Part shown: positions 3,160 through 31,925 of the stretch, one piece after another
How the letters are laid out: the number at the start of each line of letters is the position of its first letter
How positions within the stretch are numbered: position 1 is the stretch's first letter
Made by a program: the position numbers and the translations under genes
The notes under the pieces: generated by a model
Database searches by the model: none
The model's input: the letters and a program-made list of their open reading frames with translations, nothing else
Told to the model about the DNA's origin: nothing
Assembly: GCA_946409515.1 (NCBI GenBank)
Contig: CAMJWS010000001.1
Span: forward strand, 65,557-129,556
Reading direction: 5' to 3'
Length of the DNA stretch: 64,000 nt
Source of the DNA: an uncultured Caryophanales bacterium
Lineage (GTDB): Bacteria; Bacillota_I; Bacilli_A; RFN20; CAG-826

Positions 3160-3801
3160 TTTCTTTAATAGCTTTTTAAGCTCTTTTTTGCTTTGCTCTA
3201 AATCCCCAGTAAGCAATGGGATTAGTTTTTTGATTTCTTCAATATCTTTGTCCCACCACTTGAATTCCAAAAGAAGATCAATTGTTTCTTTATCAAATCT
3301 ATATTTTTTAATAACTGCGGGATTACCTGCGACAACCGCATATGGAGGAACGTCTTTCGCTACTACTGCATTAGCGCCTATAATCGCGCCATCACCAATA
3401 TGGACTCCTGGTAGAATTGTGGCGTTTTGACCAATCCATACATCATTACCTACGACTGTATCTCCACGGTTTCCTCTATCTCCGAATGGCCTAGATAGAC
3501 CTTTGAATTCATCAATGATTTCAAAAGGATAAGTTGTTAAACAATCTAACATGTGATTAGCACCATTCATGATAAATTCCACGCCTCTTGCTATAGCAAC
3601 AAACTTGCCTATGATAAGTTTGTCGCCCATAAAATCGTAATGATGAGTGACGTGTTTTTCAAACGATTCTGGTCCTTCATCCATATCATCATAATATGAA
3701 TAATCACCCACAATAATGTTTGGTCTAGTGATTACACTTTTGATATAACAAAAAGATTTAAATTGTGCATTTGGGTAAATTGGTTTCATTTCTTTTTCCA
3801 T
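3157..3801 (-). CDS. Xenobiotic-type acetyltransferase (Vat/CatB hexapeptide family)
   Basis: 214 residues with the full plan of type B chloramphenicol/streptogramin acetyltransferases: GDYSYYDD near residue 32, a hexapeptide beta-helix with His83 in NGANHML as the likely catalytic base, the [17 protein letters not shown] coil, then the [11 protein letters not shown] turn and a charged C-terminal helix. Family members acetylate streptogramin A, chloramphenicol or native substrates with acetyl-CoA, so resistance cannot be claimed from sequence. A TATCAT box 6 bases before the ATG and no Shine-Dalgarno suggest a leaderless message. It follows the CmpB-like gene by 29 bases. Confidence 0.87.
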
Positions 3802-3830
3802 AACAATATGATAACAAAAAAATAATCATT

Positions 3831-4457
3831 TTATTTTTCTTTGTTTTGATGAAGTTGCTTAATTCTATTCTTTAATTCTTTCTTAAAGTCTTCAAATCTT
3901 AAATTAGCGATTTCTTTATACTCTTTAAGTTTTGTGGCTAGGTGAATTGAATAGGCGAAATCAACCGCCATTGCGCCCATCATCATCCCCACAAAATATG
4001 TGTAAATTAGGTTTTCGCTAATCCAAGAAATACCTTCCACTAAGAATGGATTTAAAAGGAAATAATATAATGAACCAACGACTAACCATATTAAAGAGAA
4101 TGAAGGACAAATAATGCCCATGATGTTTCCTTTACGGTCACTATAATCCCATAGTTTAACTTTAAGTCCTTTGATAAATATCAAACCAGCGATGAATTCC
4201 ACGACTGTCATACCAACACCGATGATAAGAATGCGAACAATGGTGTCTGCTATTTGATTAGTTATTCCCAGAGGAATATTGCTAACAGCGTATAAGACTA
4301 GAACACCAAAACCATAAATTGGTAAATATGGTCCTGTTAAGAATCCTGGGTTCATCCATTTCTTTTGAGAAACAAATCTTCTAAAAAATAATTCAATTAT
4401 CCACCCTAGTAATGAACCGATGACAAATAATGTTGAAATAATAACTAGATACTTCAT
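3831..4457 (-). CDS. CmpB-type multi-spanning membrane protein
   Basis: 208 residues with about five hydrophobic segments. It opens with GSLLGWIIELFFRR and then NPGFLTGPYLPIYGFG, the hallmark of the family labelled putative ABC-transporter permease CmpB in Firmicutes. The C-terminus is a basic coiled region in the cytosol. Despite the label, no ATPase or binding protein is adjacent and the role is not established. Same strand as the Vat-like gene, 29 bases away. Confidence 0.75.
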   Translation of the reverse strand: MKYLVIISTLFVIGSLLGWIIELFFRRFVSQKKWMNPGFLTGPYLPIYGFGVLVLYAVSNIPLGITNQIADTIVRILIIGVGMTVVEFIAGLIFIKGLKVKLWDYSDRKGNIMGIICPSFSLIWLVVGSLYYFLLNPFLVEGISWISENLIYTYFVGMMMGAMAVDFAYSIHLATKLKEYKEIANLRFEDFKKELKNRIKQLHQNKEK

Positions 4458-15832: not shown

Positions 15833-17365
15833 TTAGGCTTGTGCTTTTGAATGTGCATTTTTTAAGAGCACATATGTCGTTTCTGGGTAATGCATATCGA
15901 GCAATCTTGATAAGTCGTTAGCAGGTGCGCCACCAAACGCATAAGAGAGAAGGATAGCTTGGAAAAGGTTACCAATGCCTTTAACTAAAACAGCACAGTC
16001 AGCTATTAAGCCTTCTTCAGTAAACGGGACATTATCCTTAACTAAATATGGTTTTAAGAATTCTGCCATTTTTGCACCAGTTTCATCATTGATAATAGAC
16101 AGCGCACCTAAACCAAGATCCTTTAGGTCTGCCAAAAGTTTGGAACGTGTACTGCTTGTTAAAGCAAAGATATAACCAATGCCATTGCTTAAACCTGTTT
16201 GGTAATTATTGACGTATTGCTCTCTATTGTTGGCGTATCTCTTTTCATCTTCTTCATCAGTGATTTCATGTTCGAAAACTGTTTTTAATAAGAAGTCTCG
16301 ATATTGTGCATCATTGGTGGTATTTTCATCCATTTCTTGAAATTCAGGGAAGTTCATTCCTTCATCAAATTGGTTCATTAATGTAGCAACATTTGGATCA
16401 TAGATTTGATAGTCTACACCGCATCTATAAAGTTCATATTGTTCTGGTGGAATATAGGTAATCAAATCAGCATCATTGATAACGTTATGAACGTTTGGAT
16501 AAGCGATAGCATTCGTCTCAATTAAGGAGGCAGGTGCTTCAAATGTATAGACGAATAAGTTTTCTTGAGTGATGGCTAATTCGTTATTTCTTAAGATTAA
16601 ACTGGAAAGCATATTTGATAATGCACCAGCACGAGAATAACCATTAATCCAAACCTTTAATGACTTATCTTTTGCGTAAGTATTTAAGTATGTCTTTAAG
16701 GCTTCGTAAGTTTCAGCGCCTCTCGTCGCAAAACCTTCATGGTCACCGGTTTTACCAATGGTGAAGTTATTAGCCCATTCCATACCATAGTCAAAGCCAC
16801 GGAATGAAACTGTTACTAGCTCATAATTACCAATGGTTTTATGCGCCATAAAGTAACCAATTGTGTCTTTAGTAGGGTCACTATCATAATCATGAGGAGT
16901 AATATCTTCAAATTCTGCTTCGGTGAAGAATGCAGTGCCTTTTGTCTTGTTCATTGTGGCTAAAGAAGCACCAAATGATAGCATTGATAAATCATTGTTG
17001 TATTCTTTTGGATCACCTAAGAACAATTCATCATCAAATGTGAATGATAAGTTATATGGTTCTAATGTTTGGCCTTCTTCCGCTTTCTTAATACCTGGAT
17101 CTAGCTGCACAGTAATATCTTTCATAAAATACTGTGATTCAGGTCTAGAAGATGAACTAGATGAACTGCTACTAGAAGATGGTTTAGCGCTGCTGCTACT
17201 TGAGCTTGATGGTTTTGATTCTTCTGAAGATGAACTCGATGGTTCACTAGCTGGTGGCTCTTCACTAGAAGAAATAGGCGAGGAAGATGGTTTAGAATTA
17301 CCACAACCACTTATAGTGAACGCCGAAATAATTAAAATAATTGGTAAAAATTTCTTATTTTTCAT
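15833..17365 (-). CDS. Lipoprotein with lipase-like alpha/beta-hydrolase domain
   Basis: 510 residues starting MKNKKF at 17365 with GGGAG 9 bases upstream; an upstream frame to 17434 has no ribosome site. Signal peptide with lipobox TISGC, a Ser/Pro/Glu-rich spacer (about 25-75), then a hydrolase domain with the nucleophile elbow GYSRAG near residue 242 following ETYEALKTYLNTY, typical of class-3 lipase-like folds. Anchored outside the membrane; it probably hydrolyses esters, but the substrate and the remaining catalytic residues are unproven. First gene after the terminator at 17423-17450. Confidence 0.8.
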   Translation of the reverse strand: MKNKKFLPIILIISAFTISGCGNSKPSSSPISSSEEPPASEPSSSSSEESKPSSSSSSSAKPSSSSSSSSSSSRPESQYFMKDITVQLDPGIKKAEEGQTLEPYNLSFTFDDELFLGDPKEYNNDLSMLSFGASLATMNKTKGTAFFTEAEFEDITPHDYDSDPTKDTIGYFMAHKTIGNYELVTVSFRGFDYGMEWANNFTIGKTGDHEGFATRGAETYEALKTYLNTYAKDKSLKVWINGYSRAGALSNMLSSLILRNNELAITQENLFVYTFEAPASLIETNAIAYPNVHNVINDADLITYIPPEQYELYRCGVDYQIYDPNVATLMNQFDEGMNFPEFQEMDENTTNDAQYRDFLLKTVFEHEITDEEDEKRYANNREQYVNNYQTGLSNGIGYIFALTSSTRSKLLADLKDLGLGALSIINDETGAKMAEFLKPYLVKDNVPFTEEGLIADCAVLVKGIGNLFQAILLSYAFGGAPANDLSRLLDMHYPETTYVLLKNAHSKAQA

Positions 17366-17422
17366 ATATGTCTCCCTTTCAAACATAAATGATTTGATAT
17401 TTATTATTATACACTTTTCTTT

Positions 17423-17450
17423 AAAGAAAAACACGGCTTGTTAGGCCGTG
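17423..17450 (-). terminator. Terminator behind the 42-aa peptide gene
   Basis: Stem CACGGC/GCCGTG with a 7-base loop, followed on minus by TGTTTTTCTTT. Confidence 0.85.
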
Positions 17451-17479: not shown

Positions 17480-17608
17480 CTATGGTTGTTTATCGCCACC
17501 CCAGAAAGGATCTTGCAAATCACCTGATGTAGCAATGAGATCATCAGTGGCTAAGTCACCTTCAAAATAGATAATATCTAATTCTGGTTTTTCGAATTTC
17601 TTATTCAT
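17480..17608 (-). CDS. 42-residue acidic peptide linked to the surface protein
   Basis: An ATG at 17608 with AGGAG 8 bases upstream opens a frame of 42 codons: MNKKFEKPEL at the N-terminus, then a DIIYFEGD segment, DDLIATSGD in the middle and DPFWGGDKQP at the end. The (K-F/Y-x-K-P-E-L ... TSG) pattern recalls short peptides seen in many Firmicutes with no known role; it could also be a precursor peptide. It lies 11 bases behind the InlB-repeat gene and ahead of a strong terminator, so it should be co-expressed with it. Confidence 0.7.
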   Translation of the reverse strand: MNKKFEKPELDIIYFEGDLATDDLIATSGDLQDPFWGGDKQP

Positions 17609-17619
17609 AATAAGTACTC

Positions 17620-19407
17620 CTATAAATTCGCTAAATAGTTAAGTGATCCGCTTAATGATTGAGCATTATAGTTAGGGCCATCAAGTAAATCTTGTGCAAG
17701 ACTCTTAACTGATTTTCTTGTTTCTTTAAAGAACACTACACCATCATCTTGGGTAACAATGAATGCCGCTGAAGCATATTCTTCGGTATAGTTTTCTTCT
17801 AAAACGCTTCTACGGATATTCCAAACATAGTAGTCATCTGTGACACCTTGATATGCAGTATCGTTATATAAGACTGGATATGAATCTGGGTCGGATGTGA
17901 TCTCGTATGAATGGATTTCAACGTTTGGATTACTTTGAGCGGTGGCATAGTAACTCTTTAACTGTTTAGCGCCTAAATACTCACCCGTAGAATATAGTTC
18001 ACCATAACCAATAATATGTGATTCTTCGTCTAATGCATTCCATAAACCTTCGGTGATAATACCACCAAATCTGACATATAAATTGGTAAAAGTGAAGTGA
18101 CCTTCTCCATCTTTTGAATAGTGATACGCTAAAGAGGAACGGGTATCAATTGCTTTAATGGTTTCAATTACTTTTGATTCCCAAATAGCATACAAAGTAA
18201 TGTTTTCTGTTACCGTATAATTTGTGCCTGGTTGAAGGCTAATTCCGGTACCCTCTGCCTTAGTATTCCATTCTTTAAAGACATGATAGTCTTGTGGTAC
18301 AAAGCCATTACTTCTTAAGACAACCATCTGTTCTGCACTAGCAGATTGGCTATTTGTGTTACCAGATTTACCACCATTAATATCATATCTGATTGTGTAA
18401 GTATTTCTGACCCAACGTAAATAGCCTGTCTGATTATATGTTTGTTGAGCCCAAGTTAATGTGTGATGGTTACTGCCTGCTGCGGAAATAGTAATATAGT
18501 TACTAAAGTTATCTTTGTATTTCCAATGGATATTACTAAAGACATTAAGGTTATCAGGCAAAGCAACACTACTTTCATCAAAGGTAACATTTACAGGATA
18601 AACAGAAGAGTTATTTTCTGAATAACTGTAGTTACTCAAGGTGATGCCACCAATACGTTTACTATAGATGCGTGGAGTAACTCTTGCATTTGCTCCATAT
18701 AAACTTATTTGTGGTGTCGAAGATGATACCGGCTCGAGAAGAACGCCATTATTGGCGCCTTGTATTGTTCCATAATTGTAAATCACACCACCATTCGCAG
18801 TGATTGCTGGCTGGTTAGCAGTTGTAGCAATTACTGAAGCTCCATCTTGCACTGTTAAAGTGGTTCTTTCGTGAATATAGATGGTTCTACCAGAAGAAAA
18901 GTTTTTAATTTGAACGCCTGATTGAATTTTAGCTGTGCAAGTATAATTACCATTCGTTTGTGTTGGATTGATAAATAAGGCAGCATTCGTACAATAGGCA
19001 TTTATTTTGCCTCCTGCAACTGAACTTTGAATTGTTAGATCGAGATTTTCAGTAACATTACCTGCACCATAGGCAACGAACCAGTCTACTGGAGAATTTT
19101 GGCTACCAACAGTAAGTGTATGACCATTTAAATCAATTGTTACTTGAGCTGTAGTAAGCCAAGTATTACAGTCGGTTTCAGTTACATCTCGAAGAAGTTT
19201 TATACCAATATGAGGCACGACTGGTTTTTGGTTAAGAGCGTCTTTGGAAGTGGCATAATATGTATTATTTATAAACATCGCCTGCCAAGGTTCATCAGCA
19301 GCTTCCACTCTTGTTGGTCCTTTAGCTTCTTTAAAGGCTAAAGCACTACTTCCAATACAAAGCGATAAGGCCAAGGCAAATATGCCTAATCTAAAAATGT
19401 TTTTCAT
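17620..19407 (-). CDS. Secreted surface protein with beta-helix-like region and InlB-type repeat
   Basis: 595 residues. A signal peptide (about 1-24, IGSSALA) is followed by a Thr/Asn-rich, beta-helix-like region (about 60-330; LTVQDGASVIATT, NGGVIYNYGTIQGANNG) and one Listeria-Bacteroides repeat (about 335-412; TIRYDINGGKSG, FKEWNTKAEGTG, ITLYAIWE). The C-terminal 180 residues are unassigned. There is no LPXTG motif or membrane anchor at the end, so attachment is unclear. Adhesion or cell-surface structure is the likely role. A lipoprotein gene lies upstream (26-base gap) and a small peptide gene downstream. Confidence 0.8.
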   Translation of the reverse strand: MKNIFRLGIFALALSLCIGSSALAFKEAKGPTRVEAADEPWQAMFINNTYYATSKDALNQKPVVPHIGIKLLRDVTETDCNTWLTTAQVTIDLNGHTLTVGSQNSPVDWFVAYGAGNVTENLDLTIQSSVAGGKINAYCTNAALFINPTQTNGNYTCTAKIQSGVQIKNFSSGRTIYIHERTTLTVQDGASVIATTANQPAITANGGVIYNYGTIQGANNGVLLEPVSSSTPQISLYGANARVTPRIYSKRIGGITLSNYSYSENNSSVYPVNVTFDESSVALPDNLNVFSNIHWKYKDNFSNYITISAAGSNHHTLTWAQQTYNQTGYLRWVRNTYTIRYDINGGKSGNTNSQSASAEQMVVLRSNGFVPQDYHVFKEWNTKAEGTGISLQPGTNYTVTENITLYAIWESKVIETIKAIDTRSSLAYHYSKDGEGHFTFTNLYVRFGGIITEGLWNALDEESHIIGYGELYSTGEYLGAKQLKSYYATAQSNPNVEIHSYEITSDPDSYPVLYNDTAYQGVTDDYYVWNIRRSVLEENYTEEYASAAFIVTQDDGVVFFKETRKSVKSLAQDLLDGPNYNAQSLSGSLNYLANL

Positions 19408-19433: not shown

Positions 19434-20156
19434 TTAAGCGACAGTAATTGCGGTCACATCATTGCCGGTTTTAAATGAAGTTGTTTCAATTTTAGCCCAA
19501 GAAGTGCCATCTTCATTTGTGGTACCAGCATATTGATAAAGGCTAATGCCTAAGTCTTTATCGACATAGTATTCGTGATCAACAGAGACGGTGGCAACTG
19601 AGCGATGATATTTATATTTCAAAACATCTCTGCCAGCGTATTTTCCTATACCATTGCTCGCAAATCCTTCATTAGCGAAGTAATTATTCGCCACATAAAG
19701 ATAATTGGTCACGCTTTCAAACATTGTAGCGTATTGTGTTTCACCTGCATTAGCGATTAATACTGACCATGTATGATTGTCATCATCATAAGTGAGCATT
19801 GAGCAGACACCATTTTCTAAACGATAACCTGTACCGCCGCCTCCTTCGTCATACTCCCACCAGACGTTGCCTTTCATACCGATGACAATTGTGCCACCAC
19901 TGCCTTCATTTTCAGAAGCTTGGGTTGTAATTTCAAAGCCAGTGTTTTTACCAAAGGCCATGAGTTTTTCAAGTGATTCTGGCTTATCAAAGATAGAATC
20001 ATCGATGCTGTTTTGGTTATTGGCATTGCCACTCGAATTGTCATTAACACTATCAGCGCTATTGTCACCACCTAATTGGTCCATTAGATTGCCAAGATTG
20101 CACGCACTTAAGGAAATCATTAAAAGTGGTAACAAAACAAAAAGTTTCTTTTTCAT
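19434..20156 (-). CDS. Lipoprotein of unknown function
   Basis: 240 residues starting MKKKLF at 20156 with AGGAG upstream; a longer frame to 20219 lacks a ribosome site. Lipobox LSAC, then a Ser/Asn/Asp-rich spacer (about 35-65) and a beta-rich domain containing GTIVIGMKGNVWWEYDEGG and AGRDVLKYKYHRS. The pattern resembles LolA/LppX-like or outer-surface beta-barrel-shell lipoproteins of Gram-positives, but no family can be named. It is followed 26 bases later by the InlB-repeat protein gene. Confidence 0.7.
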   Translation of the reverse strand: MKKKLFVLLPLLMISLSACNLGNLMDQLGGDNSADSVNDNSSGNANNQNSIDDSIFDKPESLEKLMAFGKNTGFEITTQASENEGSGGTIVIGMKGNVWWEYDEGGGGTGYRLENGVCSMLTYDDDNHTWSVLIANAGETQYATMFESVTNYLYVANNYFANEGFASNGIGKYAGRDVLKYKYHRSVATVSVDHEYYVDKDLGISLYQYAGTTNEDGTSWAKIETTSFKTGNDVTAITVA

Positions 20157-20208: not shown

Positions 20209-20248
20209 AAAAAAATCAACCCATCTTAATTTTTGGGGTTGATTTTTA
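20209..20248. terminator. Bidirectional terminator built from the GGGTTGAT motif
   Basis: Stem AAAATCAACCC (20212-20222) with GGGTTGATTTT (20236-20246), A- and T-runs on both sides. It ends the LuxR-type regulator gene (stop at 20255) and carries both orientations of the box found upstream of that gene. Confidence 0.75.
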
Positions 20249-20254
20249 ATACTT

Positions 20255-22369
20255 TTATTTGATTTTATCTTTCACCAAATCAATGAACTCATTACGGCTA
20301 AAAACATTCAATTTAGTGTATATGTGATTGATATGTGTCTTAACTGTTGCCTTACTAATGTAGTTTTTGCTAGCAATTTCATCTCTAGTCTTGCCTTTTA
20401 ATATGGCAGTAGCAATGTCTTTTTCTTTGTTGGTAAGAATCTTATCATAACAGGCTAAGAATTTATTGATTTCTTCTTCTGTGAAAGTGAATGAAGGTTT
20501 GGGTTGTTTAGCATTTTTCTTCTTTTTGATGATGAGAAGAACAGTGATAACCACTCCTACGATAAGAAGAACGCTAATAATAGGTACACCAATCGCCAAG
20601 AAATAGAACAAAGGTGTATTTTCATACTTCGCGTAGATATTGATTGAAGCATTATTATCTTTTCCATCATAGATGAACTTATTGCCGAGTAATCTACCGC
20701 TTTCACCTTTATAGCCGATGAATTTTTTGAACTTCGTACTTTCTAATTCCCTTAAAAATATTTCTTCAAGGAAATGAGCAGTTCTTGATTCAATGAGATT
20801 TTTACTATTATAGACATTGAGTGTACATAATGAATGACGAGTGGAACCTAAAGAAATGCCACTCATGTATTTAGCGTTTTCACCAAATATCTCATTAAGT
20901 ATTTTTTCAGGAACTACGAAATCTTTTAAGGAAGATGAATTGAATTGATAGTTATTGTCCTTATCAAGGCTTAGTAAGCCTGTTTCAAGGGCTTTTGAAA
21001 CACTTGTTAAGCGGTTGTAGCCATTCTCAATAGAAGGTGATTCATCTCTTACAAATGTTTCTTTATAGATTTCATCTAAGACGACTGAGCCCTTGATATT
21101 GAATGATTGATAGGCTAAGACATCATCAGGTTTATCAAAATCAAATTCGAATTCTGTAGCAAGAAACGGTTTATTAGCGTATAGCGAATAGAATAACTCA
21201 ATGTTATTGACGTCATTTTCTCCATAGATGATTGGATGGGCAATGCCAGAATAGACGTTATGGGATAAGTTATTGATAATCTTGGAATTTAAAACTTTTA
21301 AGGAATGACCACTACCGGTGAAATAGATAGCACCACCTAATTCACTATTAGCCATCTTGCCATAGGAGATTTCTTCATTGCTGCTTCTTTGAGCGGTGTT
21401 GTTTTCAATTGTGGATGAAATAATACAACCGTTGGTGTTACCGAAATATAAGCCACCACCATAGGAAGCACGGTTATTAGCAATTAAGACATTATCGAAA
21501 TCAAATTCGGAATTGAATAAACAGATAGCACCACCCTGGCTACCATCTTGTGTGCTAGTGTCACCTTGATATACATAGTTAGCTAGGTTATTAGTGAATT
21601 TGGAATCAACTGCTTTTAAAGCAATGTCGGTAGCGTATATCGCTCCACCACCCCAGCCTTTTTTATCAAATGTTCCAGAGATGTTATTATCAAAGACTGT
21701 TTTGTTAATATTGATCGAGACGTTATCTTGATAGCCATCAAAGAACAATGCCCCACCAGCGTGATAAGCAGCGTTATCGACGAAAGTACAGTTATCAAGA
21801 TTGATATTAAGTTTGGCAGATGTTTGATCGCCATATAGAGTTAAGTAGTCAGGGTTTTCTTGATAATTACCATACATGCCATATAAAGCACCGCCTTCAT
21901 AATTCATGTAGCCTTTAAAAGTACATCCCTTATATGAAGCGTTTACATTACCAGAAAAGAAAGATGCGTATTGTAATTTAGCGTCATCTTTCCACTCCTC
22001 ACTAGTTAAGTTTTTATTGTTTTCATAAAGCGAGAAATTGATGTTTTCAAATCTCACGCTTAATAAATCAGCGTAAGTCTTACCACCAAAGATATCAAAA
22101 CTACCACGTTTAAAAGTGGAACCTGAATCTTTGCCCTTAATGGTAATGCTCTTTTTGATTTCGACTCTTTCATAGACGTTATATAAGCCAGTAACACCAC
22201 TGGTGAAATCGATGTCATCCACGAGAATCACATCACCATCGTTAGCGGCGCTTATCGCCACCTTAAGAGCATCTCTTGATGATATTAAAGAATTAGCTTT
22301 GTTCGTATTAGGAGGAACGTTAGCTAAACTCGGTACAACAATTAAAAGCGATAATAGTTTTAGTATCAT
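20255..22369 (-). CDS. Membrane-spanning regulator: extracellular beta-helix, one TM helix, cytosolic LuxR-type HTH
   Basis: 704 residues. A short signal peptide (about 1-17) leads to a large predicted extracellular right-handed beta-helix (about 30-400) with six GGA-[IL]-[YFC] or GGLYF turns near 159, 205, 241, 279, 305 and 345. Residues 400-585 are unassigned. A single TM helix lies at about 587-614, with a KKKK stop-transfer. The cytosolic tail ends in a LuxR/GerE HTH (about 643-704; LTNKEKDIATAILKGKTRDEIASK, then ISKATVKTHINHIYTKL). It thus looks like a one-component transmembrane regulator reading an outside signal such as a glycan or wall fragment. Five GGGGTTGATA-type boxes precede it. 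Confidence 0.85.
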   Translation of the reverse strand: MILKLLSLLIVVPSLANVPPNTNKANSLISSRDALKVAISAANDGDVILVDDIDFTSGVTGLYNVYERVEIKKSITIKGKDSGSTFKRGSFDIFGGKTYADLLSVRFENINFSLYENNKNLTSEEWKDDAKLQYASFFSGNVNASYKGCTFKGYMNYEGGALYGMYGNYQENPDYLTLYGDQTSAKLNINLDNCTFVDNAAYHAGGALFFDGYQDNVSININKTVFDNNISGTFDKKGWGGGAIYATDIALKAVDSKFTNNLANYVYQGDTSTQDGSQGGAICLFNSEFDFDNVLIANNRASYGGGLYFGNTNGCIISSTIENNTAQRSSNEEISYGKMANSELGGAIYFTGSGHSLKVLNSKIINNLSHNVYSGIAHPIIYGENDVNNIELFYSLYANKPFLATEFEFDFDKPDDVLAYQSFNIKGSVVLDEIYKETFVRDESPSIENGYNRLTSVSKALETGLLSLDKDNNYQFNSSSLKDFVVPEKILNEIFGENAKYMSGISLGSTRHSLCTLNVYNSKNLIESRTAHFLEEIFLRELESTKFKKFIGYKGESGRLLGNKFIYDGKDNNASINIYAKYENTPLFYFLAIGVPIISVLLIVGVVITVLLIIKKKKNAKQPKPSFTFTEEEINKFLACYDKILTNKEKDIATAILKGKTRDEIASKNYISKATVKTHINHIYTKLNVFSRNEFIDLVKDKIK

Positions 22370-22430
22370 AAATTTGATGTTCTTATTTTACATTATAAAT
22401 AATAAATAGCATCATCCCCCTAAAAATTTC

Positions 22431-22597
22431 AGGGTTGATATTTATTTGGGTATTTAAAAAATTTAGATAAATGACTAAAAATTCTTTGAAAAGAATAGCT
22501 TTGGGGGTTGATATCACTTAGATGGGGTTGATTATTTTTATTTCAAAAAAGCGGGAAAGTTGATTATATCAACCCCCACTTTTTTATATCAACCCCT
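22431..22597. promoter_or_regulatory. Five GGGGTTGATA boxes and promoter upstream of the LuxR-type regulator
   Basis: TTGAT cores (plus strand) start at 22435, 22508 and 22528; ATCAA cores (inverted) start at 22568 and 22588. The pairs 22508/22528 and 22568/22588 are each exactly 20 bp apart and face each other. On minus the outer inverted box gives TTGATA (22587-22592), an 18-bp spacer and TATAAT (22563-22568), a good promoter for the regulator gene with a leader of about 190 bases. The whole 22370-22671 gap holds nothing else recognisable apart from the hairpin at 22546-22587. Confidence 0.65.
22546..22587. terminator. Terminator-like hairpin within the box cluster
   Basis: AAAAAAG.GGG..GTTGAT pairs with ATCAAC.CCC.CTTTTTT around a TAT loop, with A- and T-runs on either side. 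It overlaps the proposed -10 box, so it may be operator symmetry rather than a working terminator. Confidence 0.4.
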
Positions 22598-29167: not shown

Positions 29168-31561
29168 TTATTTTCTTAATTTTCTATATAAGATTAATAA
29201 GGAATTAATGACTAATACAACGGTTAGACCAGTATCCGCAAGAACTGGAACAATCATTGGGATATAAGTGGAACCAAGTATTAATACTAAGAGGGCCACA
29301 ACAAACTTCACAAATAAGGCGAAGACGATGTTGAAGACGGCGGTATGTCTAGCAATTCTTGCAATCTTCACTGCTTCATAAACTTTAGCAGGATCATCAT
29401 TCATGATAACGACATCAGCGTTTTCAACAGCGATATCACTACCAATAGCACCCATAGCGATACCAACATCCGCTCTCATGATACTTGGAGCATCATTGAT
29501 GCCATCGCCAACAAAAGCAACTGCTCTATTAGTGGCCACCATTTCTCTTTCGAGAATTTCAGTTTTTTGATCTGGTGTTAATTCGCTGTAGACACGATCG
29601 AGGCCTAATTCATCTTTGATGTAATCAGCGTTCTCTTTCTTATCACCAGTTAAAAGGACAACACCTTTCTTTTCTTTATGTAAGAGTTTGACCATTTCAT
29701 AGGCTTCTTTTTTTACTTCATCGTATAAAACGATGTAACCTAAGTATTTATCACCCTTCTTACAGTGAACAATTGTGCCAATTGCTTCTTCCTTAAGGTG
29801 TTCTACACCATTATCTCTCATGAATTGTGCGTTACCAGCATAGATAGTTTCACCTTCATAAGTAGTCTTAACACCAAAGCCTGCGATTTCTTGATAATCA
29901 ACTTGCTTAGCCGCTAAAGATTTGACATCAACATCATGAGTAATTGCTTTAGCAATTGGGTGAGTAGATAAGCATTCAGCAGCGTATAAAGCATTTAATA
30001 ATTCTTCTTCACTAACACCATCTTCATTAGCGATTTTTGTGATGGTAAACACACCATGAGTTAAAGTACCTGTTTTGTCGGTCACAATCTTATCAACGTT
30101 ATTTAATTGATCTAAATAGTTAGTACCTTTAATGACAATGCCTCTTTTGCTAGCCAAACCAACACTAGCGAAATATGCAAGTGGGACAGAAATCACAATT
30201 GCACATGGGCAACCTGTAACGAGGATTTCTAATCCTCTAACCACAAATTCGCTCCAATCTTTGGTGATTAAACCACCGATGAGTAGCACTAAAGCGGAAA
30301 GAATAACAATAGCTGGTGTATACCATTTAGCGAACTTAGCAATAAATTCATCCGCTTTGGATTTCTTTTCACCGCTATTAGAGATTAATTCAATAATCTT
30401 AGCGACTGCACTATCTTCATATTTCTTATTTACCTTGATGGTAATAGAACCTGTTTTAACTAAGCAACCAGCAAACACTTCTTTATTATTTTCATCGGTT
30501 AATACTGGGACAAATTCACCAGTTAAAGATGATTTATCAACATAAGCAGAACCAGAAACAACTTCACCATCAACCGGAATCATTTCGCCCGCACTGATAA
30601 CAACGTTATCACCGATTTCTAATTCTTCTGGATCAACCTTTCTAATTTCACCGTCTTTTAATAAGTTAGCGTATTCCACTCTTAATTGAATAGCGTTCAT
30701 GACCGCTAGCTTACTTCTATTAGTGGCAACCTTTTCGACAACTTGACCAACTTGGAATAAACCAACAACCATCATGGCTTCCATAGCAAAGTGAACACCA
30801 TGTTCAGTTTGTCCTTCTCTTAGGAGGTGAATAATCGCTAAAGCGGTTGCGCCTAATACAGCGATAGTAATTAATAAGTTATGGTCAATGATGTTTCTAA
30901 GATTCTTAATGTGTTTAATAACACGCCAAGTAACATCGTATGTTAATAAGACTGTTGTCGCAGTATAGATAGCAAATCTAATCCAGCCACTATTATCAAA
31001 TCTTTCTAAAACAGCAAGGTTAATAATTAAGACGATAACAGCAACAAAGATTCTTGCTAATAAGAACCACATGCTTGGAGTAAATAGTCTTTCTTTATGT
31101 TCGACTTTACCTTCGATTTCGCTAATGTCTAATGGATCGCTTTCAACTTGGGCGGTAATCCTTTTGATTTGTTCAATACTGAAAGCCTTATTAGTGTATG
31201 TGATATACATCTTATTAGTGGAAAAATCAATATGCGCGTCTTCAATACCTTCTTGCTTTGCAAGATGGGCTTCTGATTTATGAGCGCAGTTAGGACAGTC
31301 AAAGCCAGAGATATGATATGTTTTCTTCACCACTTTCTTATCTAAGTCATAGATATCTAGTGGATCACTCTCTACTTGAGCGATGACTTTTTTAATTTCA
31401 TCAACTTCTAATTCTTTGTCTTTATATGTGACATACATCTTATTTGTAGAAAAATCGATATGACAGCTATCGACTTTTTCATGTTTGCCTAAATGGGCTT
31501 CACTCTTATGCGCACAGTTTGGGCAGTCAAATCCAGAAATGTGATATGTTTTCTTAATCAT
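29168..31561 (-). CDS. Heavy-metal P1B-type ATPase with two HMA domains (Zn/Cd type)
   Basis: 797 residues. Two tandem, nearly identical HMA domains carry DCPNCAHK (Cys13/16 and Cys89/92), a form typical of Zn/Cd/Pb exporters. Then come membrane helices, the CPC motif at 451-453 and the phosphorylation site DKTGT at 495-499, with GDGINDAP in the P-domain. It exports soft divalent metals. The start overlaps the ArsR gene by 8 bases, so metal-regulated co-expression is expected. The second HMA looks like a recent duplication. Confidence 0.93.
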   Translation of the reverse strand: MIKKTYHISGFDCPNCAHKSEAHLGKHEKVDSCHIDFSTNKMYVTYKDKELEVDEIKKVIAQVESDPLDIYDLDKKVVKKTYHISGFDCPNCAHKSEAHLAKQEGIEDAHIDFSTNKMYITYTNKAFSIEQIKRITAQVESDPLDISEIEGKVEHKERLFTPSMWFLLARIFVAVIVLIINLAVLERFDNSGWIRFAIYTATTVLLTYDVTWRVIKHIKNLRNIIDHNLLITIAVLGATALAIIHLLREGQTEHGVHFAMEAMMVVGLFQVGQVVEKVATNRSKLAVMNAIQLRVEYANLLKDGEIRKVDPEELEIGDNVVISAGEMIPVDGEVVSGSAYVDKSSLTGEFVPVLTDENNKEVFAGCLVKTGSITIKVNKKYEDSAVAKIIELISNSGEKKSKADEFIAKFAKWYTPAIVILSALVLLIGGLITKDWSEFVVRGLEILVTGCPCAIVISVPLAYFASVGLASKRGIVIKGTNYLDQLNNVDKIVTDKTGTLTHGVFTITKIANEDGVSEEELLNALYAAECLSTHPIAKAITHDVDVKSLAAKQVDYQEIAGFGVKTTYEGETIYAGNAQFMRDNGVEHLKEEAIGTIVHCKKGDKYLGYIVLYDEVKKEAYEMVKLLHKEKKGVVLLTGDKKENADYIKDELGLDRVYSELTPDQKTEILEREMVATNRAVAFVGDGINDAPSIMRADVGIAMGAIGSDIAVENADVVIMNDDPAKVYEAVKIARIARHTAVFNIVFALFVKFVVALLVLILGSTYIPMIVPVLADTGLTVVLVINSLLILYRKLRK

Positions 31562-31925
31562 TTTCTTCTTCCTCCTCCATTACGTGTTCATAAGCAACGC
31601 CTAAAAGTAAGCGCACATGTTTGTCAGATAGTGAGTAGTACACTTTTGTCTTTTCTTTACGAGTTCTCACTAAGTCAGCATCTTTTAAGACTCTTAATTG
31701 ATGGCTCACTAAAGATTGAGAAGCCCCTATTTCCGCTGCGATATCGTTGACACATTTTTCAATCATGCAATCCATGTTTAAACAGGTACCACAGTCGCAG
31801 TCACCTTCACAGACGCATCTATCGTCATCGAGTAACGCAAACATAATCTTTAATCTTGTTGCGTCGGAAGCTGTTTCTAACAAGCTTTCCATTTTCTTAA
31901 TTGTTGAGTTTTGAACACCTTTCAT
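31554..31925 (-). CDS. ArsR/SmtB metal sensor with Cys-rich insertion
   Basis: 123 residues with a winged helix (DIAAEIGASQSLVSHQLRVLKDADLV at 61-86) and a beta wing (RKEKTKVYYSL). The alpha-3 region, CVCD-like in CadC sensors, is expanded to seven cysteines (37, 39, 43, 45, 48, 53, 58) within 22 residues. It should repress the ATPase until soft metal binds. GGTGAT ribosome site; the promoter holds a dyad operator exactly between -35 and -10. The tail is acidic (EEEEEND). Confidence 0.93.
   Translation of the reverse strand: MKGVQNSTIKKMESLLETASDATRLKIMFALLDDDRCVCEGDCDCGTCLNMDCMIEKCVNDIAAEIGASQSLVSHQLRVLKDADLVRTRKEKTKVYYSLSDKHVRLLLGVAYEHVMEEEEEND

Follow-up and report, generated by a model that had tools for sequence, protein, structure and literature searches.

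Single-pass regulators of the ToxR/CadC type act from the membrane on nearby genes, with an N-terminal winged helix inside the cell and a C-terminal sensor outside it. Transmembrane transcription regulators (TTRs) as a group were surveyed by Demey et al. (2023; PMC10269533), and according to the abstract and results of that survey they are common, the single-pass form being the commonest. Membrane-bound LuxR-type proteins have been described in Eggerthella lenta, where DadR, HcdR and CadR carry 10–12 N-terminal transmembrane (TM) helices and activate neighbouring genes; genetic tests showed that the TM part and the helix-turn-helix (HTH) are both needed (Dong et al., 2022; PMC9734109). One E. 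lenta strain has 83 transmembrane LuxRs, 74 of them with 10–12 helices (PMC9734109), so other membrane forms of LuxR exist. For the open question of how a regulator tied to the membrane reaches its promoters and works on them, the locus described here offers a compact case, with one protein, one unique type of candidate 29-bp operator, two predicted promoters and one surface operon.

The window, by which we mean the whole 64,000-nucleotide stretch of DNA that was analysed, carries on its minus strand an ORF for a 704-residue protein (20255–22369), whose parts, all on that strand, were delimited from Pfam matches, hydropathy and comparison with relatives. Exactly two stretches are hydrophobic: an N-terminal signal peptide region (residues 1–26, 22292–22369), where hydropathy peaks at residue 1, and a single TM helix (residues 587–614, 20528–20611), whose best 19-residue window is 596–614 and which AlphaFold models as a helix over 595–616. 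The TM helix is directly followed by KKKK, so the C-terminus is predicted to lie inside the cell. Residues 644–698 (20276–20440) form a LuxR/GerE HTH, matching the Pfam family GerE (PF00196) with an E-value of 1.8e-13 and 50.3 bits against a cut-off of 23.5, and matching solved LuxR/NarL HTH chains. Between the two hydrophobic stretches lie a predicted extracellular beta-helix of about residues 27–420 (21110–22291) and a juxtamembrane region, also predicted to be extracellular (residues 421–586, 20612–21109), which was defined by alignment and is shorter in a subfamily of 601-residue relatives. Searches with Pfam and NCBIfam gave no match to a kinase, receiver or PAS domain. The earlier note had proposed a signal peptide, one TM helix near residues 587–614 and, at the C-terminus, an HTH of the LuxR/GerE type, and had seen neither a receiver nor a kinase or PAS domain. 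Profile searches and hydropathy confirm each of these points, including the HTH, for which a profile search had been suggested as a check, and support the one-component, single-pass architecture. By its architecture, which unites DNA binding and membrane passage in one protein and has neither kinase nor receiver, the regulator also belongs with the TTRs.

The assignment of the ectodomain draws on both repeats and models. Chlam_PMP repeats (PF02415) were found by Pfam with an E-value of 1.7e-9 and 37.3 bits (cut-off 20.6), and the NCBIfam model POMP_repeat (TIGR01376) scored 17.8 against a cut-off of 15; there is in addition a weak Pfam match to Pectate_lyase_5 at the N-terminus. GGA[IL]/GGGL turns are seen at six places, near residues 158, 204, 240, 278, 304 and 345, in line with the six or more beta-helix turns that had been read from the sequence. 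For residues 26–416, AlphaFold run on a two-sequence alignment returned an all-beta model with a pTM of 0.65 and a mean pLDDT of only 51. The top PDB matches of this model in Foldseek are nearly all right-handed parallel beta-helices (GH110, P22 tailspike, PL6, RbmB and PfbA), the best with an E-value of 6.7e-3 and none passing 0.001, and a profile search of the ectodomain alignment against the PDB gave no match up to E 1. The full-length model, built from three sequences, is poor (pLDDT 44) outside the HTH and a portion of the N-terminal beta domain; it shows the TM segment and HTH as helices. The structure prediction proposed as a check in the earlier note thus came out on the side of a beta-helix at low confidence: an all-beta model that matches beta-helices makes such a fold likely, short of proof. 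Taken with the sequence repeats, a PMP-type beta-helix ectodomain is likely.

Full-length copies of the regulator were found in G010, of the same genus (89% identity), and in G105, of the same family (56%). A second genome of the genus, G014, has a copy 88% identical that is ended by a contig edge, and within the family G181 holds a partial copy and G189 a relative with 35% identity. A diverged 601-codon subfamily is represented in G181 and G089 and by a partial copy in G130. A shorter relative in G096 (461 aa) had no PMP repeat scored, and G411, from another family of the class, encodes a 607-aa relative in which, by eye, the parts stand in the same order. All complete relatives examined have a hydrophobic N-terminus, an ectodomain, one TM helix and GerE, and a lipobox-like Cys occurs at the N-terminus of some relatives. 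Independent assemblies contain complete homologues of equal or similar length, which excludes a fusion artefact, a frameshift or an in-frame joining of two genes, the last of which the earlier note had named as counting against the architecture; homologues lacking the TM segment, which it had also named, were not met with among these complete relatives. The suggested search for beta-helices joined to a C-terminal LuxR domain found diverged relatives with their parts in this order in other genera and in one other family.

The beta-helix, TM and LuxR architecture is rare. An ectodomain profile search of 395 genomes across the class, a sample that contains few of the family members listed here, matched only the window's own genome and G411, and a scan of genome contigs yielded just two close relatives, one in MAG RUG10878 (uncultured Erysipelotrichaceae) and one in a further MAG. 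Plasmid matches involved the HTH end only, and in viral contigs no match was confirmed. The window's assembly contained no other GerE protein at E 1e-5. Other long GerE ORFs of the order, in G094, G179, G188, G189:C158, G187 and G258 were set aside as TPR/ATPase-like or cytoplasmic by eye, and those in G243 and G260 were rejected as polytopic membrane proteins.

The regulator is followed on the minus strand by a block of surface genes. The probable first target is a lipoprotein gene of about 240 codons (19434–20156), from a family conserved beside the regulator; 26 nt after it comes the gene for a 595-aa surface protein with InlB repeats (List_Bact_rpt in Pfam; 17620–19407), and then a 42-aa peptide gene, KFEKPELDIIYFEGDLATDDLIATSGDLQDPFWGGDKQP (17480–17608), conserved in the same position, after the InlB-repeat gene, in G010 and G014. 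In G014 the protein with InlB repeats (L015:2035–4494) has 819 residues against 595 in the window, and differs from it in the N-terminal half while the C-terminal part is alike, as if a surface domain had been exchanged. After the operon comes a lipoprotein (15833–17434, minus strand) that resembles class 3 lipases and has a long linker rich in Ser and Pro; G010 and G014 have it too. G010 carries, between gltX and the regulator, a gene for a 380-aa membrane protein (L014:7670–8812), in place of which the window has tRNA-Glu. Elsewhere in the window, a metal P-type ATPase gene with two N-terminal HMA-like repeats (29168–31925, minus strand) adjoins an ArsR-type repressor.

The lipoprotein family adjoins the regulator in the window's own genome (G000) and in G010, G014, G105, G181 and G189, and of the 16 genomes of the genus, the 3 that have the regulator are also the 3 with a strong match to the lipoprotein. 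Some members of the family have no LuxR neighbour, and others have one of a different kind. Relatives in G086, G161 and G181 come straight after a NarL-type response regulator that is accompanied by kinase genes. In G243 (L123:4148–5590 and 3364–4116, minus strand) a polytopic, Eggerthella-like membrane LuxR gene stands directly before a lipoprotein gene of the same family. These arrangements suggest that different LuxR-type sensors have been placed before one lipoprotein output.

A 29-bp inverted repeat, ATCAACCC-N13-GGGWTGAT, is present upstream of the regulator and upstream of the lipoprotein/InlB-repeat operon, and sequence comparison makes the two copies candidate operators: operator 1, ATCAACCCTGAAATTTTTAGGGGGATGAT (22411–22439, minus), upstream of the regulator, and operator 2, ATCAACCCCAAAAATTAAGATGGGTTGAT (20215–20243, minus), between the regulator and the lipoprotein gene. 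The repeated box ATCAACCC(C) is visible in both flanks of the regulator. Pattern matching and comparison place further, distal half-sites at 22505–22512 and, 20 bp from this partner, at 22525–22532 on the minus strand, and in the opposite orientation, on the plus strand, at 22568–22575 and 22588–22595, again 20 bp apart. The upper end given for the regulator in the earlier note, 22597, takes in this upstream intergenic region, which is home to most of the operator-like boxes. In pattern searches, ATCAACCCC occurs five times in the window against 0.18 expected by shuffling, always in one of the two intergenic regions on either side of the regulator; five of the six copies in the 1.32-Mb assembly, and all five in G010, are at the regulator locus. 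Exact matches to the 29-bp repeat number two in G000, namely operators 1 and 2, and two in G010, in the same places. Because the repeat was defined from these very sites, the genome-wide count tests its exclusivity and not its discovery. A search for further regulon members in G000 found no other match with fewer than two mismatches, the next best site having two.

Comparing the window with G010, the upstream boxes (at -226, -206/-205, -163/-162, -143/-142 and -70) keep their order and orientation, with spacing constant to within 1 nt, and identical bases in the regulator promoters amount to 48/48 in the boxes versus 168/207 outside them. The repeat is kept at both sites in G105 with three mismatches, and on the lipoprotein side in G181 with two; across the seven candidate operators, which come from three genera, the half-site ATCAACCC does not vary, and in G105 and G181 the right half is degenerate. 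G105 lacks the distal boxes, and the relatives in G189, G096 and G411 had no recognisable box. The recognition helix of the HTH is nearly unchanged in G105, where the box is kept. From these comparisons, the 29-bp repeat is a candidate docking site of the regulator's LuxR HTH. The idea, put forward in the earlier note, that the neighbouring surface genes are natural targets is supported by this conserved, locus-specific repeat before both the regulator and the lipoprotein–InlB operon, and also by the way regulator and lipoprotein turn up together in genomes of the genus.

Inspection points to a putative proximal -10 box of the regulator, TATAAT, at 22392–22397 (minus). There is no -35 consensus for this promoter; GGGGGA stands in that place, which is covered by operator 1. 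The operator centres fall at about -40 (regulator) and about -48 (lipoprotein) from predicted starts that themselves rest on guessed -10 boxes, and the spacing from operator to guessed -10 is not constant. Further upstream, the promoter-like sequence TTGATA-18-TATAAT with an extended -10 (22563–22592, minus), a consensus match only, agrees at 11 of 12 consensus positions and overlaps two of the distal half-sites. It is built from the boxes themselves (GGGGTTGATA ... GGGGTTGATATAAT), and its 18-nt spacer is one base longer in G010. Half-sites lying over such a strong-looking distal promoter make several promoters possible, and suggest autoregulation in this genus with both feedback signs possible.

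We favour, with a probability of about 0.72, a single-pass, one-component regulator that, bound to the 29-bp repeat, governs the expression of its own gene and of the surface operon. The secreted PMP-type beta-helix would stand outside the cell, one TM helix would pass through the membrane, and the LuxR/NarL-type HTH would lie inside, some 30 residues from the membrane. Because the repeat is a palindrome, the regulator is expected to bind as a dimer, both before its own gene and before the operon for the lipoprotein, the InlB-repeat protein and the 42-aa peptide. An event outside the cell, a ligand or surface contact acting on the beta-helix, would then alter the dimer and hence DNA binding, linking an adhesin-type ectodomain to direct gene control. 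The glycan-binding-like character that the earlier note gave to the beta-helix gained no support. The protein is probably a direct outside-to-gene switch. As to its sign, activation is most likely, given operators at about -40 to -48 from the predicted starts and a proximal promoter that lacks a -35.

The same layout might instead belong to a repressor or autorepressor, which would block RNA polymerase when bound to the boxes until an outside signal relieved it. The overlap of two distal half-sites with the promoter-like sequence and the position of operator 1 over the -35 place would both suit such a protein. However, the proximal promoter without a -35 resembles activator-dependent promoters, the LuxR-type membrane relatives that have been tested are activators (PMC9734109), and G105, having no distal boxes, would need another layout for repression, and we regard this reading as doubtful. 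The DNA side is indifferent to a further possibility, regulated proteolysis, in which a signal would lead to cleavage of a beta-helix surface protein or sensor at its TM helix, releasing the LuxR HTH to act as a soluble factor: the operators would look identical. Membrane-held regulators that are activated by proteolysis are known, and the short linker after the TM helix and the separate juxtamembrane region could accommodate it. No specific protease gene is linked to the regulator in the neighbourhoods read, however, and DadR without its TM domain is inactive (PMC9734109), though that is another, 12-TM protein; on balance this route seems unlikely.

Two other explanations would remove the regulator from the boxes altogether. 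In the window, operator 2 can form a hairpin like that of a terminator (-16.4 kcal/mol, z -4.7), with a U run after it, and the G010 sequence folds at -12.9 kcal/mol; in this genus the hairpin may also end the regulator transcript. It is nevertheless most improbable that the repeats serve as RNA structures (terminators or leaders) instead of operators and that the regulator acts elsewhere. At the corresponding position in G105 and G181 the fold is weak (-3.9 and -4.6 kcal/mol, z about -1) while ATCAACCC persists, and on this ground RNA elements were rejected as the main reading; the same palindrome before the regulator is no terminator, and the motif is unique to the locus. A hairpin lost with its half-site kept, together with the absence of a terminator at operator 1, makes a role at the DNA level the better reading. 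It is harder still to credit that the protein is a surface adhesin with a vestigial HTH that does not bind DNA. Adhesive repeats of PMP-like and Pectate_lyase_5-like kinds would be in keeping with this, but in all relatives GerE clears the Pfam cut-off by a wide margin, and the HTH is the most constrained part of a protein that is under purifying selection: between the window and G010, dN/dS is 0.072 overall and 0.047 in the HTH part, where 66 of 70 residues are kept.

A regulator that binds its own box on both flanks, as we favour, also has a parallel in the 601-aa subfamily. The recognition helix of the G181 (contig 13) and G089 proteins differs from that of the window, and before the regulator genes some 75 bp of promoter sequence is conserved and holds a different palindrome, TACCCAWATGGGTA. 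The gap from the regulator to the next gene contains CCAAATGGGTA, half of that palindrome, also in G130. In pattern counts this second box is less exclusive than the first. The following gene encodes a protein of 1000–1300 residues with List_Bact_rpt (InlB-type) repeats, which are likewise found in the second gene of the window's operon. Each subfamily thus has a box of its own on both sides of the regulator and an InlB-repeat neighbour, so that layout and type of likely target are common to the two, and the second provides a comparison case with a different candidate operator. More broadly, and tentatively, since we hold it at somewhat less than even odds, small-genome gut Bacilli may use adhesin-like beta-helix receptors that relay an external contact or ligand cue across a single TM helix directly to a LuxR HTH, with an operator particular to each subfamily controlling the receptor gene and the lipoprotein/InlB operon, and with the LuxR-type sensors of the lipoprotein as if exchanged. 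The locus supplies a testable candidate operator for a regulator known solely from uncultured gut bacteria.

Set against described systems, each part of the regulator has a counterpart. The GGAI and FxxN beta-helix repeats score above curated cut-offs for those of the Chlamydia Pmp/POMP adhesins; the Pmp proteins are autotransporters with a C-terminal beta-barrel, whereas the regulator has a TM helix and HTH and no Pfam match to a beta-barrel. The NarL-type response regulators of G086, G161 and G181:C16 resemble it in that a LuxR-type HTH gene lies directly before a lipoprotein gene of the same family, but they have a receiver and separate 7TM/HisKA_3 kinase genes where the regulator has a fused ectodomain and TM helix. 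Compared with the ToxR/CadC type, in which Trans_reg_C is N-terminal, the order is reversed and the HTH is a C-terminal GerE. DadR-like LuxRs share an N-terminal membrane or sensing part, a C-terminal LuxR HTH (PF00196), control of neighbouring genes and hints of autoregulation; they differ in having 10–12 TM helices and catechol substrates, against one TM helix, a large secreted beta-helix and surface-protein targets, as predicted here. Like the TTRs, the regulator joins a DNA-binding domain and at least one TM helix in one polypeptide and needs no kinase; the abstract and results of the TTR survey contain no beta-helix ectodomain like this one, and its main text makes no mention of LuxR, GerE or beta-helix (PMC10269533). 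Our full-text literature search, whose scope was papers outside subscription, found no description of the beta-helix, TM and LuxR combination. The statement in the earlier note that no named system has this architecture was too strong, as both TTRs (PMC10269533) and LuxRs with an N-terminal membrane part (PMC9734109) have been described. The class is already known, from TTRs and 12-TM LuxRs.
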